A stretch of DNA of 64,000 nucleotides from Pestalotiopsis fici W106-1 (taxonomy: Eukaryota > Ascomycota > Sordariomycetes > Amphisphaeriales > Sporocadaceae): the NCBI RefSeq assembly GCF_000516985.1, contig NW_006917103.1:744001-808000 (forward strand). Direction: 5' to 3'. Shown piece by piece: positions 5,801 to 26,159 of this stretch. How positions within the stretch are numbered: the first letter of the stretch is position 1; each line of letters begins with the position of its first letter. Position numbers and translations under genes: made by a program. The notes beneath the pieces were generated by a model. The model had not been told where the DNA came from and did not search any database. It worked only from the letters and a program-made list of their open reading frames with translations.

Positions 5801-8800
5801 AACGACATTCGTTTGGCTGCAACCATCTGCCTCCTTGGAATGTACGGCCAGGAACTAGCAACAAGCCTTTGTATGAGTTTCCGTCGGCAGGATCAACATC
5901 AAAGTATGCTCTGTATGACGTCAATGAGAAGGGATTGGAGGAAAGGTACTAGATTCGGCTTACCGAATTACTTGCTTCTGAGCTTTCCTGATGTCTGAGT
6001 CAGGCGAGTCCCGGCTTTTCCGGTAGATGGTTTCATATAGCATGTAGACTTTCTTCGATATCTCCATGTCGGGTTTCGGATACCGTGTGGCAAGGACTGA
6101 CAGAATCGCCAAGTAAAACTCGACATCATCCCGTGTGCGCACACCAAAGGTTCCATTGAGAAAGGTCCATTTCGACAGATCATCTGGTTCCAGAGTATCA
6201 CTCAAATCGAGAAAGGGAAATTCATCCGTGCCTGCCTCACCCAAATACTCTATCGCCCGCGCTTTGAGTTCCGGCATTGGAAGAAAACTGTTTTTTAGTT
6301 GGGCAGTACAACCTTTCATAGTTAACACAACTCGGCTGAGTTCATCCCTGATTTCCTGACATTGCTGCACTTCATTCTTGATGTCATTCCAATAGTGTCC
6401 AAGTATTCCCAGGAGCTTGCCGCTATTATGCTCAATGATATGTCGGAACATGTCAGTAAGGGAACCGTTCGCGATTAGTTTTGGTTTGTCAAGAACGCCA
6501 AGTGATGTTCGCAACCAGAACGTCCAAGGTACACTAGCTTCACGACCCGATGCTGGTTGTGGGGCATTCTCCAGATAATACGGATCCAGAAAAGCTACCG
6601 AAAACTTGGGTAAGTTTTCAAGCAGTTTTGCTAAGCCGAATTTGTGGTTGTCCTTGATGTACACATCCTGGGCTTGAGGTGCAATCAGCAGGCCCTCCTG
6701 TGTAAGGACTCTGATGAAACGCAACTCGCTCGGCTTGTCAACAGCTCCACCCTGTGTGAGATATAAGAAAGAAAGATGGGGCAGAGATATTCCAACTTGT
6801 TCAGTTGTGTTGGTTCCAAATAACCTTGACCTGTTGATGACGCTTGGGTACTGGTCAAGAATCAATTGTCGCACCGCTTGAACAGAAAGTTTCTTTGCTC
6901 CCAGATTCAAAAAGAGTTTTCTTCTCTCCGCATTAAGAGTGGCGTTCCCATCGATAATATTAAGATCTAGGGAACTCGGAATGTTTTCACCGTTGGCAGT
7001 TGGAAAGACGAGTGGCGATCCGGTCTGCCCTGCGGGAATCCATTTTCCACCCTGAACCGGAATCAGCCTGAAATCGAAGATTCTTTTCCGATGTTTCTCT
7101 GCAAAACTCTTGAATGGGCGGTTCAGAACCTGTGCTGTTCTGGTATGCCATGATGGTGATGACTGCGGTGATTTGAATCGCGACGTATCCCGTGCCAAAT
7201 CAGCCTCGACCCGATCCAAAAACTGGGTCATATGAAAGTTTCGGAGGCCCCAACCTCTCAGATATGAAGAAATGGTGGAGAGATCGTAGCCACTGGAGAG
7301 ATAAACCTCCGGATCAATGTCTTCCAGAAGCGGCTCACCGAGTTCGTCAAGAGCATCATCTGTGAGGTTGCACAGCTGGTCTATCCTTTTCAGAGGACCT
7401 CCGCTCTGCGGGCGCATTAATCTTTTGACTGAAACCTTTTTCTTCATATCAGCAACGACCGACTTCCAATACTTGTCCCAGGGGAAATCGTTTTCTTGAG
7501 GCAGGTACTTGATCCATTCAAACTCGAGACTCGTATCGTGGCAGAGCTCTTCCATGGCGTTAGCAAAGGTATCAGCGATATAACTGACGAGGCCGAGGTT
7601 TCTCGCAGATGTAGTTACGATATCTTGACGATTTGCTTGTGTCACGAAGTCTGAATGAATCAAAAACTAGATCTAGTCAGTTACATGACACTTTTCACGG
7701 ATCTTTTCAACACTTTCACACACCTTGAAGCCCATATTGCGAATAGGAAGGAAAGCGAACACATTTTGTGTTTGTATGATGGGAATGGAGTTACGATCCA
7801 AGGGGAAGGCAAGAATGATCTCCGCAGAGCTAGTTGCAGGGGTCGTGGTGAGTTCCGATTGTACCCTGTTCTCGCTTTCGGGGATCCCATCCGCTGTATT
7901 CTTGGTGACATGATAATATGTCTCTTCTGCCGGGTTATCTGCAACAGATTTTCGCAGTGTTATACGATGTCCATGAGACAAGTTTGCCACTTCGAATGTG
8001 GTTGTGGTAGGGTTTCCATGGTGAGAGAAAATGATTTTTATGCGCCGGATCTTCCTGAGGAATAAAAGATGGGTATCCTGTATATCCTGAAACTGTTGCA
8101 CAATTTGCTGATGTCGTTCCTGGATCTCCAAGGCTGAGCCTGTGTCGTGTAGGAAGAGGGTGATGCGGGTGACACGGCTGGATAGATTTGTGTCGGGATC
8201 TTCCCAGATAGGAGATATCATACCCATCCCGGAGTCTTGAGTGATGAGGGCCGATTTAATCAGTGCTAGATCGGAACAACAGTGAGTGATAATCTTGTTG
8301 CACTTACCGCCGCGACGATGGACAAATGAGAACGAAAAATTCCCAGATTGAATGTGAACCTTGTGGGCTGCCATGAACACAGATTTGAAACCAATGCCCT
8401 TTTCTCCAATGTATCCTTGTGCCCCTACCTTCGAGCTCTGACCTACCTCGCATATGGCGATCAGATCTTCTCTAGTGAATCCATCCTCATTGCACTCCAA
8501 AACGATCTTGTCAGGGAAGATTTGGAAGGATGCGTACGGCTCTATCCCATTACCTGTAGCCATTGAGTAGCTATTGTCATCAGTATTTTGTAATAATTCG
8601 AAGACGAATCGTGTGGTGCTGCTATATAAGTTCTTCGCCAGGCTGTTCGACATTTAGTATCTCTATCTCGACTAGTTATCAGCCTCGGGCTTGCACTCAC
8701 GTGATGACTGATTTCCCCGACATCCGGTCTTTCTTGAGCATGACTTCAATGATTCGTTTCCGAGTCTTCTCATCCAGAGCCTGGAGCTCATCCTCGGCAA

Positions 8801-19420: not shown

Positions 19421-22400
19421 TTAGCATTCATCCGAGAGACACACTTTACAGCGAGGCAAATCGTCCCACAAAGCCCATCCCCTGATGCTTCCCGTGCCGT
19501 CACGCTCATTGCACGGATTGTTATCATTGTCGTTGGGGTCCAACCGGTCGGGCGTGAATCTCTCGCCAAAAAGCTCAATCTGAAAACCACACGAGTCTTC
19601 ATCAGAGAACTGCGGGCCGCTGTCGCGGAACGTGCCCTGCTGGTCGCACCAACTAAAGCTGGTGTTGTCCCTTGAGATATCGCAAAGGGGCGTTTTCTCG
19701 CCAGGGCCTCCAGCTAAAGCCTGACGATTATTGCCAGCGTCGCCTTTGAAGTTTTCAAGATACGTGTTAGTTTTTGCTTCATACATGATCTTGTGGATAT
19801 AAGAGAAGAGAGGGAGGAAGGGGAGACAAACCGGGTGCATAAAAAAGCCAAATGTTGACAAGGCGTCCGGTGTTGGTGTTGGTGAAAAGCCCCAGGCACA
19901 TGGAGACCGACGTCGTCGGCGCCGGAGCCGCCGATGTCGTGCTAGATGAGGTCGTCGAGGAGGAGGAGGTGGTGGGTTTAATGGTGGTCGTCGGTGCCGT
20001 GTACTCGGACGAGCTCGGATCTTTGGGGTCCTGATATCCTGGGGGGTAGCCCGTTGGGGCCGGCGCGCACCAAAAGCCCGAGCAGATGTGGCCACCGCAC
20101 CCGTCCGGGTTTGCGCAGGTCGGGCCCACCGCTGGTCCCGTCGTGAGGGTGATTTGCCCGCCGCCGCCGTCTGCAGGCAAGGTGCAAGAGCCACCAGATT
20201 GGCGTTTCGCAAACATGGTCTCGTTGCCTTTGACTATTCTGGGTAGCAGTTCTGCAAACACGGCAGCCTGGCCACAGTCCGCAGGGGGCGTGTAATCATT
20301 GATGTCGGTTGGCAACTCGGGGCAACTGGTTGAATCGCCTCCCAGCAGGCAGTTTATATCTCCATCCATACCATTCCAGATCAATGCTCGCTTTTCGCCA
20401 GATCCCACGCTGACAAGGCGTGGTGGTATTATTTCTCGTTCAAAGGCCCGAATCATGTTCTTCACGGCCTTGGGCCCACTGCTATCCGCTGCATTTACTA
20501 TACAGAGAAACGAAGATTCAGCTTAGTAATCCATGAGATGCGTTGCCAACACGAGCGCAAAGGCAGGACGAGTAGACTAGAGTGTGGGCAGTATACTTAC
20601 ATTGTCCCTGCCAATCAGAGGGTAATCCTTTGTAGTATCCAGCAACAGCAGCCACCTGCGGAGCTGCAAAGGAGGTGCCATGCCACGTCGTGTAGCCGGA
20701 AATGTCGGGCAACTTGAGGTTCTGACCTCCTGCATATGTCGTCAAGAAGTCTGCATACTGCGAAAAGGCTGCTTCTATACCGTATGGATTAGTGGCACCC
20801 ACGACGATGAAGTTGGGAAGATATCCAACATCATCCGAGTCATTCCGATCTTTCCACAGTGGGTCCACAGCGTTAGTTGGGTTGGCAAATAGTTGAGGGT
20901 AGGTATCAACGGCTTTGCGACCTTCTCTGCCAAAGTTTCCAGACGCGGCAACGAGTGTGACACCTGCTCTATCCATCCACTTGAGGATGTCGTAGAGTCT
21001 ATTGATGAATGGCTGGTACCAGAAGCGGGAGTCTGAGCCCCAGGACATATTGATGACTGACGTGGCGGGCGACCTCCCGTTGCTGTTCATATCTTCCCAT
21101 GCGAGCAGGAGGTCCTCTAGATACCAATCCCGAGGATCAGGATCAAAGGTCCTCTGGGCATCATCCGTCATTTCACTCGCGGGAGCATAGCCGGTGAAGG
21201 CGACCTTGCATTTCCTGCAGACACCCAATGTCTTACCATTTATAAAGGCCGCCACTTGGGTTCCATGAAGCCGAGTAGGCTCTCCAATGGGGTTGCCATA
21301 AGCAAATGCATTTAAGGGACGAGGAGGAGTCGCCTGGTCGGACCACTCTTCGTGTCTGGTGTCGACACCTCCAGGTTCCCCCACGACATAGACAGTCATT
21401 TCAGGACTGGCCGAATCGTCGTAAAAGAATACATATTGTCCCTGTAGAACTCCTCCTCTTCCTGGGGGCTGAGCATCCGCGGCTTTCCATCTTTGGCCTT
21501 TTGGAAGAGATACCAAGGCACCATTCCATCTTTCTACCACAGTTGCTGATGTAGCTGCTCTTTTCCACGGTTGCGGGTTGATTTTCGATCGATCTTCACT
21601 GGTTATCGGCGAGTATTTATCATTTGATTGGTTTCGAGCCCTTGCTTCGAGATCCAATGTATCTAATCCCCTGGGGGTTATCTGATCGTTGCTCTCCACT
21701 ATCATCATTCTCGGATTTCCTGGCGGCTTGTTGTTCTTGTTCCACTCCTGGTAATCTACGACATTGTCTCTCCCGACAATGGACTCGACTGCAGTTTTGA
21801 CCTCTGGGGATAGGCCTTTTACCCAGAAGAAGGCCGTGTAGCCGCCCGCGAAGCTGTCAGACTTAACTTCACGGCCGTTGTCCCCTTCAATTTGTGTACC
21901 GAGCGCCGCTCTGATTTCACTAATTTTAGTCTTGTCTCTGGGATTCTCAGGATAAATCACATAGGGCACAGGTTCGCAAGCACGTTTGTGCAAAGTATGA
22001 TCTCCATTTGCGACTTTCCTTCGACGTGACGTCCCGCCGGCCGCTTCAACGGTGCAGGTTTCGATTGCGGTGGTGGTTCCCTGGGTAGTTGATTGGCTTA
22101 CAGAGCAGCCTGAGATGGTCTCGCACGTTTTTGTTGTCACAGTGGCCGTTGTTGAAGTTACTGTATCACCTGAAGTTACCGAGAAGGTGGTACCGATTGA
22201 ACAGATGGACGCGGTCTGCGTCGTCGTGCACTCGGACGGCTCTTCCGAGTACGTGAGCTCACCACCCGGACCGATGGTGATTGGCGGCCAGGGCGGCAGT
22301 GGCCCTTCTAGTGTAAACCCAGAGGGCCATCGAATTCCTGGAGGTGGGCCCGGGGGATAAATGCCAGGTGGGAAGGACCAGAACCAGCCGCCGATTTCGA

Positions 22401-25400
22401 GATCGTCCCGTTTGATGCATACAAAGAAGAACCAGAGCTTGCAGGGCTGTTTGGTGCCACCGTTGGTTGGCTCAGGCTTCTCGACCGTTGTGCTGATGGG
22501 GGCTATGATCCCCGGGGGCCACGTAGTCCATACCGGCAAAGGTGTAGTTGTCGTGTCGCTATCAGAGGGCGGTGGCTCCGTAGTTGAGGTGGGAGGGAAG
22601 CCCGTCACGACACTACAATCGACAGATACAAGACCAGTCGTCGGACCCAGGAAACTGACTACCTTTGTAGTTGGGCAGTTGAATGAAATTCCAAAGGTGG
22701 TGGCCGTGAAGCACTCAACATAGATGGAGGTGGACGGTGTGGCGAAGACAATCACGTCGTCGGGCGGACATGCTACCGTTGTGGGGGTTAAAGCACCAGG
22801 GAAAGTAATAGTGGTCACAGTAGCGCCACTAACAGTCACAGTCGAGGTAACGCCAGTGTAAAAAGTGCCGCTCCCACTGGGGAGGTCGCCAGAGGGCACA
22901 GGTATAGTACTCGGGCCAGTTGGGCCATCATCGATCAGCGGCCAAGGCGGGAGGGGGACAACGCGAGTCGTAGTGCTTCCACTGCCATCAGGTAGCGAGA
23001 TGGTGAATGGGGGAACGTCAACACTGGGTGTTATATCGAGAGTTGACTGGCCTGATGAGAAATTGTAGTTGGAATAAGGTATTCCCTCAACCGTCAGAGG
23101 TGCAATGTTGAGCACTGTAGTTGTCGTAGTTGTGATAAAGGTCACAGTTACAGCACCATTCCGTGTCACTGTGCTCGTGTCTCCATACTGAAACGACGTG
23201 GTAAATGGACTCGGAGAGATGGTAGCTGGATTGGCCAGGGAACTTGTGGGGAAGATCAGTAAACAGGACTCAACCGAGCACGTCACTGTCGATGCAGTCC
23301 ATATTTCAGTACCGACAAACACGGTATTGATATTGTCGGCGCCGTCTAGCGGGAGCCAGACGCTGATTTCAGTCGTGAAGCCGCGTTGGTTAGAATCCTT
23401 CGACACGACAGTCTTGTCGATGCCAACGGCCATTTCAGATATTGCTACTGTGAACAAGTTCAGAAACACCACGTCGGTCGACCCCGTCACTCTCAGGACG
23501 CGTTGCTGACAGTCATTGGTTTCGAGGCAGTCTTGGTAATAGTCTTGAAAGAAACTATAAAGCCCGGCTCCGTGAACCGTGATGGAATTCGATTCAGAGA
23601 CAACCATACCCCATGCAGAGGCACAAGCTGCATCTCCTTTGCAGCTAGTAAAGTCTGGGTCGCCGGGAAAGCTGGCCGCAACATTGAATGGTTTCGGAGC
23701 AATGGGTTCGGGCTGATAATACGGCGTCTCTGTCTGTATGTGACCAAGGTAGACGTCCTTTGCGCCATAAACCAGGTAGTTATACATGACTGAGTGCTCA
23801 GAACCGCCGCCGTAGAACCAGGACGGGTTTTGCGACTCAATGAGCAGACCACGAGCGCAATAGACACTGATCTGGTTGGACAGCTTATCCGGACTGTCGT
23901 ATACACTCATATCATTGTCATGGTCGGCTGCCCAAACCCATACATTCTCAAAGTAACCGGAAGCCTGCTTCGTAACGTGCATCATAAGCGAGGCGGCTAT
24001 ACACAAATTGTTGAAATCGCGCTTTGGGCATTGCTCAATGTCAAGGTCTGTGCCCTTAGCACCGCCAACGCGGATATGTGAGTCCCACATCGCCGCGGCA
24101 CCCTGAGAAACTGCATCCACGTTCCATTCCAGAACAATGGCTCCGGCTGTGTTGCCTGCGACGGTGAAGAGCATATCCGTAATTTCCATCGTGCCAATAT
24201 CACCACGCTTGCCCACCTGGACTACTACCTTCGGATCAGTCATGTCGGAGAAATAATAGCCGGCGCCCTGGATTTGAGACCAGCTGGAACCCACGACTCG
24301 TGATCCCGTAGGTATCAGCACAGTACCGGCAACCTGGTAGATTCCGGCCGGGAAATAGGCAATCTTGGTCGATGCTACGGCTTCCCGGAGGAAGGAATTA
24401 AGACATTCTGTTTGGTCCCCAGTTCCATCATTATCGCAGCCTCCGTCATTCGTTGCTACAGAGAAGTCGGATGCGCCGAGTGATTCGTATTGGGGGCGCG
24501 TCCGGACAAACAACTTGCCGTCGGACAACAGGCCGGAAGGCTTGGCTGGCACTTCCACCGTCCCGGTGAAGTCGGAGCCTTGATCACCCCTATAGACCTT
24601 TCCCGTGGTCCACATTTCAATGGTACCCGAGGCAGTCAATAGGGTATCTCCGTCATCAATCTGGACAACCCGGTCCACTCCGTCGATCTCGACATTGTCA
24701 AGCACGATATGCGGAGATGTGGCGCGGTTGTTTGTCAGTATACCGACCGGTACATTACTGATGCTGGTGTCAACAACGGAAATGGAGCCAATACCCTGTC
24801 CTGTGATGCCACCGGCACCGCTAATGTTGAATCCAATGGCGCCGCCGTTAATTTCGACACGTTGCCACACCCATCCCCAGTCCCACACCATTTGTATGGC
24901 AGTCAGGCAATTGTTGAACTTCAAGTTCTGGGCTGTGTATTGCTGAGACCCGGCTCGCCACCCAATGTTTCCACCATTGAAAGTCAGGTCCGAGACGAAG
25001 CCACCACTTCCATTCTCAGTAAAGATACCAACGGCTGTGCTGTTCTGGTCATCCTTGGCCTCGGGCATGTTGAAAACTAGATGTTGGAGTGAGGTTGCCT
25101 GAGACACCTGCCAGTGAATGCCGGTTGGGACCAAGGGCTGGTCGTCATCATCGGTAGATTCGGGCATTTCCGTCAAGTCGAAAATAAAGTTTCGTATTTG
25201 ACGGAAGAACTGATTTTGATTAATGTACCAGTTGGCCCCATTGCCGCCCGGAATATAGGGGTCAGTATCGATAAGCGCGATGCCTTTGAAATCATCACAG
25301 CCGAGAATAGTCGGTGGGTCATTGGCATCTCCAATGAATTGCGTATAGTACAGTTGGATAATTGGAGAGCAAATCTTATAGGTGCCGGCAGGGAAGTACA

Positions 25401-26159
25401 CGATAGCACCCTGACTAAAGGTGTTGCCGCACTCCTCGCCGCAGCGATTGCCATCCTCCACGGCAGCATTGATGGCTTCAACCGTGTCGGAATCTCCAGT
25501 GTTGTCGGCTCCAAAGTCCAAGACGTTTCGATAGAACGCATAGCCGGACCCAGCACGAGGTTGCTGGGTACGATTAGTTCATTGTGCCTTGAGGACTGCA
25601 TGGTGCCATATTCAACTTACACTACCCAATGGTCCAAGTTCCTCAAGCCAGTATGAGCCACTTTGCCGCTTCCTGATCGCTACAGGATCAAAGTTTGTAG
25701 ATTGCGGGGATGTCTTGTTCTCGAAGCCACCACGCATAATGCTGCCGGAGTCCAGATTGGAAACGAACTCATCATGACTACCAGAGTAGGCCCACACGGG
25801 TCCATTCTGACTACCTATCCGACGTGTAAGTGTGACAGAATGCCATGAAGTAAAGAATATGTACATGATATGATGTCCGTATGAAGATATCATATCGTGA
25901 TACAGTCGATAACATACCTTTGTCTGGGGCTACATTGTAGTAGTTTTTGGTATTGTCCACCATGTAGGATGGACCAGGCTTGAAGAAGATTAAGCACGAG
26001 TGCCATCGGCTGGGTATTAGGCATCCTCACCTTTGGGCCCGATTGTGGAACATTAGGATACCTTTCCGGATTGGAATACTTCCAGACAGCTGAGACACAA
26101 AGGAATTGAATCTGGAAAACAAGCAGGATGAGCGAACAAACGCCCATAATTCGCCCCAT
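19421..26159 (-). CDS. Secreted GH55 beta-1,3-glucanase fused to subtilase-like domain
   Basis: There are six exons: 26159-26031, 25978-25918, 25814-25621, 25563-20601, 20497-19832 and 19776-19421. They sum to 6369 bp, 2122 residues, with phases closing. A signal peptide (CSLILLVFQIQFLCVSA) is followed by a GH55 module: SYWLEELG, DFGADNTGDSDT..INAAV and YFPAGTYKI near residues 118-200, and a second pectate-lyase-3-like half from about residue 490 (YFPAGIYQV). GH55 enzymes are exo/endo-beta-1,3-glucanases made of two beta-helices. Thr/Ser/Pro-rich linkers span about 970-1270. A propeptide-like segment follows, then a subtilase fold at about 1540-1780 with RLHGTQVAAF (His), INMSWGS (Asn) and HGTSFAAPQVAA (Ser). 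The strand expected to bear the Asp reads TVYVVGEPGGVD, so the DTG motif is missing. Exons 5-6 add a Cys-rich C-terminal domain. Exon 4 is one continuous frame, so the fusion is real; only the last intron is uncertain. Confidence 0.85.

Follow-up and report, generated by a model that had tools for sequence, protein, structure and literature searches.

A GH55 glucanase joined to a subtilase with glutamate at the place of the catalytic aspartate in Pestalotiopsis fici and many other Pezizomycotina

A 64,000-nucleotide stretch of the Pestalotiopsis fici W106-1 genome (contig NW_006917103.1 of assembly GCF_000516985.1, positions 744,001 to 808,000; hereafter the window) carries on its minus strand the gene PFICI_14647, in which a glycoside hydrolase family 55 (GH55) glucanase-like module and an S8 subtilase are joined in one chain. 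This GH55-S8 fusion is real and widespread, occurring in many Pezizomycotina. An earlier description of the gene, made from the window alone (the original prediction), held that the subtilase seems to lack its catalytic Asp and may be dead or altered. Comparison across the family shows Glu in place of the missing Asp, within what looks like a functional active site. On balance it is fairly probable that the gene encodes a secreted multi-enzyme precursor, comprising a working GH55 glucanase and a Ser-His-Glu subtilase, that is cut by a kexin-type protease and aimed at beta-1,3-glucan-rich walls. What appears to be new is a subtilase-family variant within a modular, probably kexin-processed, wall-directed secreted precursor.

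The fused gene and its relatives

The minus-strand frame 20518-25578 is open over 1686 codons, and its exon part matches both PF12708 (E-value 1.9e-80, two stretches) and PF00082 (E-value 1.4e-13) in a Pfam search, so that the single open exon joining glucanase and subtilase in the original prediction is borne out. The six exons of that prediction splice into an unbroken protein of 2122 residues, whereas the deposited PFICI_14647 has 2111; it departs from the predicted splice at residue 65 (intron 2), and its last exon begins later (19743-19421 instead of 19776-19421), giving 11 residues fewer. The exons ahead of it are 26159-26031, 25978-25918, 25814-25621, 25563-20601 and 20497-19832. Most of the predicted junctions agree with the deposited protein, including the exon-4/exon-5 splice at 20601/20497. 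Residues 1310-1830, the part used as a query, are 100% identical to PFICI_14647. The modules follow one another as two GH55 halves, conserved linkers, prodomain, subtilase, Cys-rich tail and C-terminal domain (Table 1).

Table 1. Features of the fused gene, its neighbour and related loci of the same genome (51.7 Mb in 20 contigs, the window lying on contig C13). Coordinates are window positions unless a contig is given; a slash in a dibasic site marks the putative cut after KR.
Feature	Coordinates	Strand	Basis
Whole gene	19421..26159	-	Spliced frame without inner stop; deposited protein PFICI_14647 (P0001)
GH55 exo-beta-1,3-glucanase-like module, two halves (protein ~135-870)	23338..25545	-	PF12708, PDB matches, residues kept
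Conserved linkers A and B (protein ~880-1300)	22048..23310	-	phmmer; common to GH18 and GDSL backbones
Dibasic site LHKR/ACEP ahead of prodomain	21982..21987	-	Interval dibasic in 37/67 members
Subtilase prodomain (protein ~1323-1407)	21727..21981	-	Ordered domain in AlphaFold2 (AF2) model
Dibasic site PWKR/AATS in disordered stretch between prodomain and catalytic domain	21559..21564	-	53/73 members; predicted local distance difference test score (pLDDT) <50
S8 subtilase catalytic domain, contains intron 20600-20498	20370..21507	-	PF00082 E-value 1.4e-13; Foldseek and VIA-align subtilase matches
Glu1524, at place of catalytic Asp	21376..21378	-	Column counts in 73 members; spacing to downstream His
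His1561, catalytic His	21265..21267	-	70/70 rows with residue
Asn1671, oxyanion Asn	20935..20937	-	72/72 rows with residue
Ser1759, catalytic Ser	20671..20673	-	70/71 rows with residue
Dibasic site FAKR/QSGG after protease	20202..20207	-	Interval dibasic in 32/57 members
Cys-rich tail GPTC..CGG.ICSGFWC..PTG.PPGYQDPKDP	19965..20201	-	57/85 proteins; two other loci of this genome
Exchangeable C-terminal domain, contains last intron	19421..19904	-	phmmer grouping; no Pfam family
Divergent small secreted-looking open reading frame, 170 aa	26974..27486	+	Head-to-head with window gene; genome search
Only other match to small open reading frame (54% identity)	G000:C14:510275-510739	-	Head-to-head with C14 GH55 paralogue
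L029, GH55 paralogue with linker and Cys-rich tail, without protease	G000:C14:510800-520500		
L039, GH18 gene with linker, prodomain, S8-like part and tail	G000:C11:553500-563400		

The GH55 part closely resembles solved exo-beta-1,3-glucanases. About 730 residues are matched in the PDB by the C. thermophilum enzyme 5m5z (E-value 4e-180) and by PcLam55A (3eqn, E-value 7.5e-173); PF12708 occurs in two stretches and 725 query residues align to 5m5z, confirming the two tandem beta-helix halves that had been proposed. Positions were counted by eye along printed alignments, with a numbering offset for PcLam55A that we take to be correct. The general acid E740, Y743, the Glu-His pair E717/H718 and the aromatic-block residues W670/W672 are kept, as are two exo-type marks, N245 and Q692. 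The list of residues compared was taken from passages of PMC10637969. From this conservation, the GH55 part is expected to be an exo-acting enzyme on beta-1,3-glucan. Unlike the solved chains, which have only 757-758 residues, the window protein continues for about 1250 more residues after GH55, the protease among them.

The same architecture recurs well beyond P. fici. Searches with the subtilase part as query, limited to proteins of 0.55-1.75 times its length and hence favouring fused long ones, yielded 71 long proteins; one of these searches was capped at 7991 scored candidates. PF12708 and PF00082 occur together in 49 of the 71; ten others combine PF00704 (GH18) with S8 (nine of the ten also have LysM or CBM18 models), and three combine S8 with what we take to be a GDSL-type lipase model. 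A further search, which favours short proteins (~280-890 aa) and was capped at 7999 scored candidates, yielded four close matches, P0024-P0027 (P0027 a fragment, P0025 with the linker ahead), and ten more distant subtilases. A chance fusion or gene-model artefact confined to this genome is thus highly improbable, since one open exon carries both domains and the pairing recurs in those 49 proteins from many genera. The Thr/Pro-rich linkers of the original prediction are conserved as well: linker A was found by phmmer in 64 and linker B in 67 of 85 proteins, the window's own included. A Pfam scan of a 321-aa linker piece gave no match. On a tree of 71 rows, built by a quick method and with several long branches, the carrier type (GH55, GH18 or GDSL) changes at least five times. 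This tree omits P0027, P0029, P0031-P0037, P0058, P0064, P0069, P0075 and P0078, and keeps P0085 and, as outgroup, P0028 and P0030.

The catalytic acid of the subtilase

Both the profile and the fold of an S8 subtilase are present in the window protein, the former in Pfam and the latter in an AF2 model of the protease piece (ending ahead of intron 20600-20498) that Foldseek and VIA-align match to subtilases. The motifs LHGT, NMSWG and GTSFAAP are all found in the spliced protein, and His and Ser lie in LHGT and GTSFAAP as the original prediction had them. The oxyanion Asn, which had been placed in NMSWG, is instead N1671 of AASGN, AxGN being the motif that we presume to hold this residue. The canonical Ser-His-Asp triad with Asp at the end of strand 1 is absent; the first catalytic strand reads VYVVG-E-PGG, with Glu1524 at the place of the acid. 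The original prediction was therefore right that the canonical Asp is missing, but an acid is present: alignment and spacing place a Glu, rather than another Asp, at the triad position.

Conservation was counted over 73 family members (the 85 proteins without the fragment P0027, the distant or generic subtilases P0028-P0037 and the borderline P0085), whose S8 modules have a median pairwise identity of 33%. The acid column holds Glu in 57, Asp in 12, Ala in one and a gap in three. The other catalytic columns are nearly invariant (His 70, gap 3; Asn 72, gap 1; Ser 70, Phe 1, gap 2), and all four residues are present together in 63 of the 73. Collapsing at 60% identity to 41 sequences leaves the same pattern (acid Glu 34, Asp 6, gap 1; His 39, gap 2; Asn 41; Ser 41), as do the first 23 sequences, in which His and an AGN-type Asn are found in every row, Ser in 22, all but the truncated P0005, and Glu or Asp throughout. 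As a control, the well-filled catalytic-domain columns were screened for Asp plus Glu at 90% or more. Three qualify; two of these are nearly fixed for a single letter (Asp 67/72, Glu 66/69), and the acid column alone contains a mixture. The tree requires at least 11 Glu/Asp interchanges, with motif columns set to be dropped and outgroup rows counted. A column confined to carboxylates with free exchange between them is what a catalytic acid predicts.

Spacing leads to the same position. The distance from the acid to a downstream His, itself conserved in all 42 rows of an alignment covering 41 of the 85 proteins, is 7 in 59 of 68 countable members, like the corresponding stretches of proteinase K, Alp1 and ver112, and 8 in the window protein and five relatives in its subclade. 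An extra residue sits ahead of the acid: the Tyr-to-acid distance is 4 in 62 members and 3 in six, against 3 in proteinase K, Alp1 and ver112. The alternative that D1529 in GGVD is the triad Asp was rejected, its column being Trp 23, Asn 6, Tyr 5 and Ser 3 of 42 rows.

Subtilase folds can also persist without catalysis, as in PCSK9 and the Csp pseudoproteases, which serve for binding or as scaffolds. A protease that is likewise dead or nearly so, with its fold kept as such a module, is unlikely here, because the acid column, wherever it is filled, is Glu or Asp in all but one of 70 rows, and the other three catalytic residues hardly vary at such low overall identity; eight of the ten members lacking the complete set have a gap at one of the four positions, which can be a gene-model error. 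By the evidence, then, the S8 part resembles a working S8 enzyme yet departs from the textbook triad.

Altered motifs were seen in a few lineages: P0063, P0069 and P0061 (Histoplasma, Blastomyces) and P0084 (Colletotrichum), with GNS and GSS around a kept Ser in P0061 and P0084 and no Ser motif in P0069. The protease may be decaying in these. A separate feature of the domain is a Cys-x-x-Cys motif, CRKC, at protein positions 1577-1580 (21208-21219), past the catalytic His; each Cys is present in 39 of 42 rows, and the motif is without counterpart in the aligned proteinase K sequence. Outside fungi, at least 29 loci with partial subtilase matches were found in prokaryote genomes, and a search of plasmids with S8 gave no match.

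Module borders and exchangeable C-termini

The propeptide-like part of the original prediction is supported by the AF2 model: its first domain, covering about residues 1-85 of the modelled piece, is ordered and, taken jointly with the catalytic domain, can be aligned to pro-subtilisins. Between the two domains, segments 89-148 and 154-185 of the model fall below pLDDT 50. Dibasic sites recur at the borders of these modules. More specifically, [KR]R occurs in the linker-prodomain interval in 37 of 67 members (11.3 expected), within 40 residues ahead of the catalytic core in 53 of 73 (10.7 expected) and from the protease end to the tail in 32 of 57 (13.0 expected), the expectation being a simple estimate from each protein's own density that leaves linker composition uncontrolled. 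This is an enrichment of about 2.5 to 5 times, and the contexts WKR/AATS and KR/QSGG recur. A further site, RKR/QSGS, lies ahead of GH55 in the window protein.

Kexin-type proteases cleave at dibasic sites, and the gathering of such sites at module borders suggests that the chain is probably cut. Under the precursor model, a kexin-type protease would cut the window protein during secretion at three places, on either side of the prodomain and again past the catalytic domain. This would release the glucanase, the protease, and the Cys-rich tail with the C-terminal domain. The GH55 part would act as an exo-beta-1,3-glucanase on glucan-rich (fungal-type) walls. The S8 part would be a working member of a fungal subtilase family with a Ser-His-Glu triad (Ser-His-Asp in some members), with one additional residue preceding the acid where the first catalytic strand ends. 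The released parts might jointly strip glucan and wall proteins, or the protease might free or activate the C-terminal domain.

Alternatively, GH55 and an active S8 could stay joined as one bifunctional enzyme attacking glucan and glycoprotein together, with the KR sites unused. The long, conserved Thr/Pro-rich linkers, the joint presence of the two domains in most of the long proteins found and the lack of KR sites in some members are consistent with this; the excess of border dibasic sites and their recurring contexts argue against it, and an uncut enzyme is regarded as possible but rather unlikely. The fused chain of the original prediction thus stands, while its "coupling" of glucanase and protease may be too strong a word, given dibasic sites at the protease borders.

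Several observations weigh against a processed precursor with a working protease. No dibasic site lies in the tested interval in 30/67, 20/73 and 25/57 members, respectively. Two members depart at catalytic columns, P0063 with Ala for the acid and P0069 with Phe for Ser. In the AF2 model the block containing His1561 reaches a mean pLDDT of just 68, and the proximity of Glu and His is read from sequence. L039 of the same genome seems to be without the Ser (GTRIIAAP, beside an unproven intron border). Finally, the sequence searches were bounded by protein length and by the number of scored candidates.

Beyond the tail, the C-terminal domains are exchanged. Fifty-five C-termini, from 53 of the 57 tail-bearing proteins (those with at least 90 residues past the tail) and two further sequences of the P. 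fici genome, fall into 16 groups by phmmer (E-value 1e-4), a grouping that may overlook distant kinship between groups. The window's group otherwise consists of five GH18-S8 proteins of Penicillium and Aspergillus that are 24-33% identical in S8, while among proteins whose C-terminus has been assigned to a group, those closest in S8 (57% and 52% identity) carry other types. C-terminal domains are thus swapped between backbones. The window's C-terminal domain matched no Pfam family, and a model of its last exon, at pLDDT 47, is too poor for use; seven of eight C-terminal sequences searched against Pfam (two from one group) gave no match over the cut-off, and one was MU117.

Two other loci of the genome carry parts of the backbone. 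The C-terminal domain of L029 groups with that of P0004 (Apiospora) and of the Xylariales proteins P0006, P0077 and P0078. The S8-like part of L039 was recognised by eye, was not matched in a protein search with the window's S8, and may be a pseudoprotease. L039 has as its neighbour on the opposite strand a frame containing seven stretches of the chitin-binding family PF00187.

The small gene head-to-head with the window gene, whose signal peptide was judged by eye, has a single other match in the genome (54% identity), and this match faces the GH55 gene on C14 in the same head-to-head arrangement; no match was found at C11, the third backbone locus. Searches of Pfam, PDB and NCBIfam with it gave nothing credible. 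A larger block duplication behind the two pairs was considered and rejected: when the 64-kb window was compared with about 59 kb surrounding the C14 locus (frames of at least 60 aa, E-value limit 1e-6), the GH55 and small genes were the only ones to match. This two-gene unit is at most a hint that the small gene may serve as a partner or protection gene.

Known systems and wider meaning

Against proteinase K-like subtilases (8gko, 2prk and 3f7o; 22-27% identical over the aligned part), the window S8 has Glu for Asp with one residue inserted ahead, a CxxC past the His and a disordered, KR-bearing stretch between prodomain and catalytic domain, and it is carried by large hydrolases. A survey of fungal subtilases (PMC5371821) defines S8 clades by DHS (Asp-His-Ser) motifs; it retained 904 of 993 genes, treating as pseudogenes those whose alignment near the triad was ambiguous. 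Among the listed publications that contain the terms for a Ser-His-Glu subtilase, judged by title and the start of the abstract, none concerned a subtilase with that triad.

Close counterparts are also found among the killer toxin-like (group C) GH18 chitinases with LysM and/or CBM18, to which the S8-bearing GH18 proteins would belong by their domains. P0022, P0049, P0057, P0065 and P0075 share the linker (P0075 without a linker B match), S8, Cys-rich tail and window-type C-terminal domain; their N-terminal enzyme is GH18, in contrast to GH55 in the window protein. Group C chitinases have been likened to the zymocin alpha/beta subunits, and the word "peptidase" is absent from the available text of that source (PMC8715425). 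Long GH55 proteins are also known in the same genus: Pestalotiopsis kenyana has seven GH55 genes, pkg1-pkg7, of which pkg2 (1426 aa) adds DNase_NucA_NucB and pkg1 has reported protein expression, and neither "peptidase" nor "subtilis-" occurs in the available text (PMC12590764). In the P. fici genome NucA/NucB has three matches, none adjoining a PF12708 match. A chitin-binding GH18 protein with Hce2 is up-regulated during non-self recognition in Podospora, GH55 going unmentioned in the available portion of PMC3689799, and "glycos-", "pectate" and "LysM" do not occur in that of PMC5567314. Among the literature matches listed, no description of a GH55-S8 or GH18-S8 family, or of a Ser-His-Glu subtilase, was found, in keeping with the original statement that the architecture was not known as characterised.

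A constant backbone with exchangeable C-terminal domains, a trait of polymorphic and killer-toxin-like systems, is found in this family. It is conceivable, if decidedly speculative and improbable at present, that the family is a fungal polymorphic weapon in which GH55, GH18 or GDSL opens the wall, an exchangeable effector domain at the C-terminus is set free by kexin and the Ser-His-Glu subtilase, and the small head-to-head protein provides partnership or self-protection. If true, this would extend the zymocin principle of a wall-acting carrier with a separate effector to filamentous ascomycetes.

The existence of a large family with Glu/Asp interchange at the triad suggests that a pseudogene filter based on triad alignment can discard real enzymes, and the family provides natural variants for testing how subtilase catalysis copes with a longer acid. 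The sharing of linkers, protease and tail by GH55, GH18 and GDSL carriers, together with the exchange of C-termini, suggests a single modular design of secreted proteins, hidden so far by single-domain naming.
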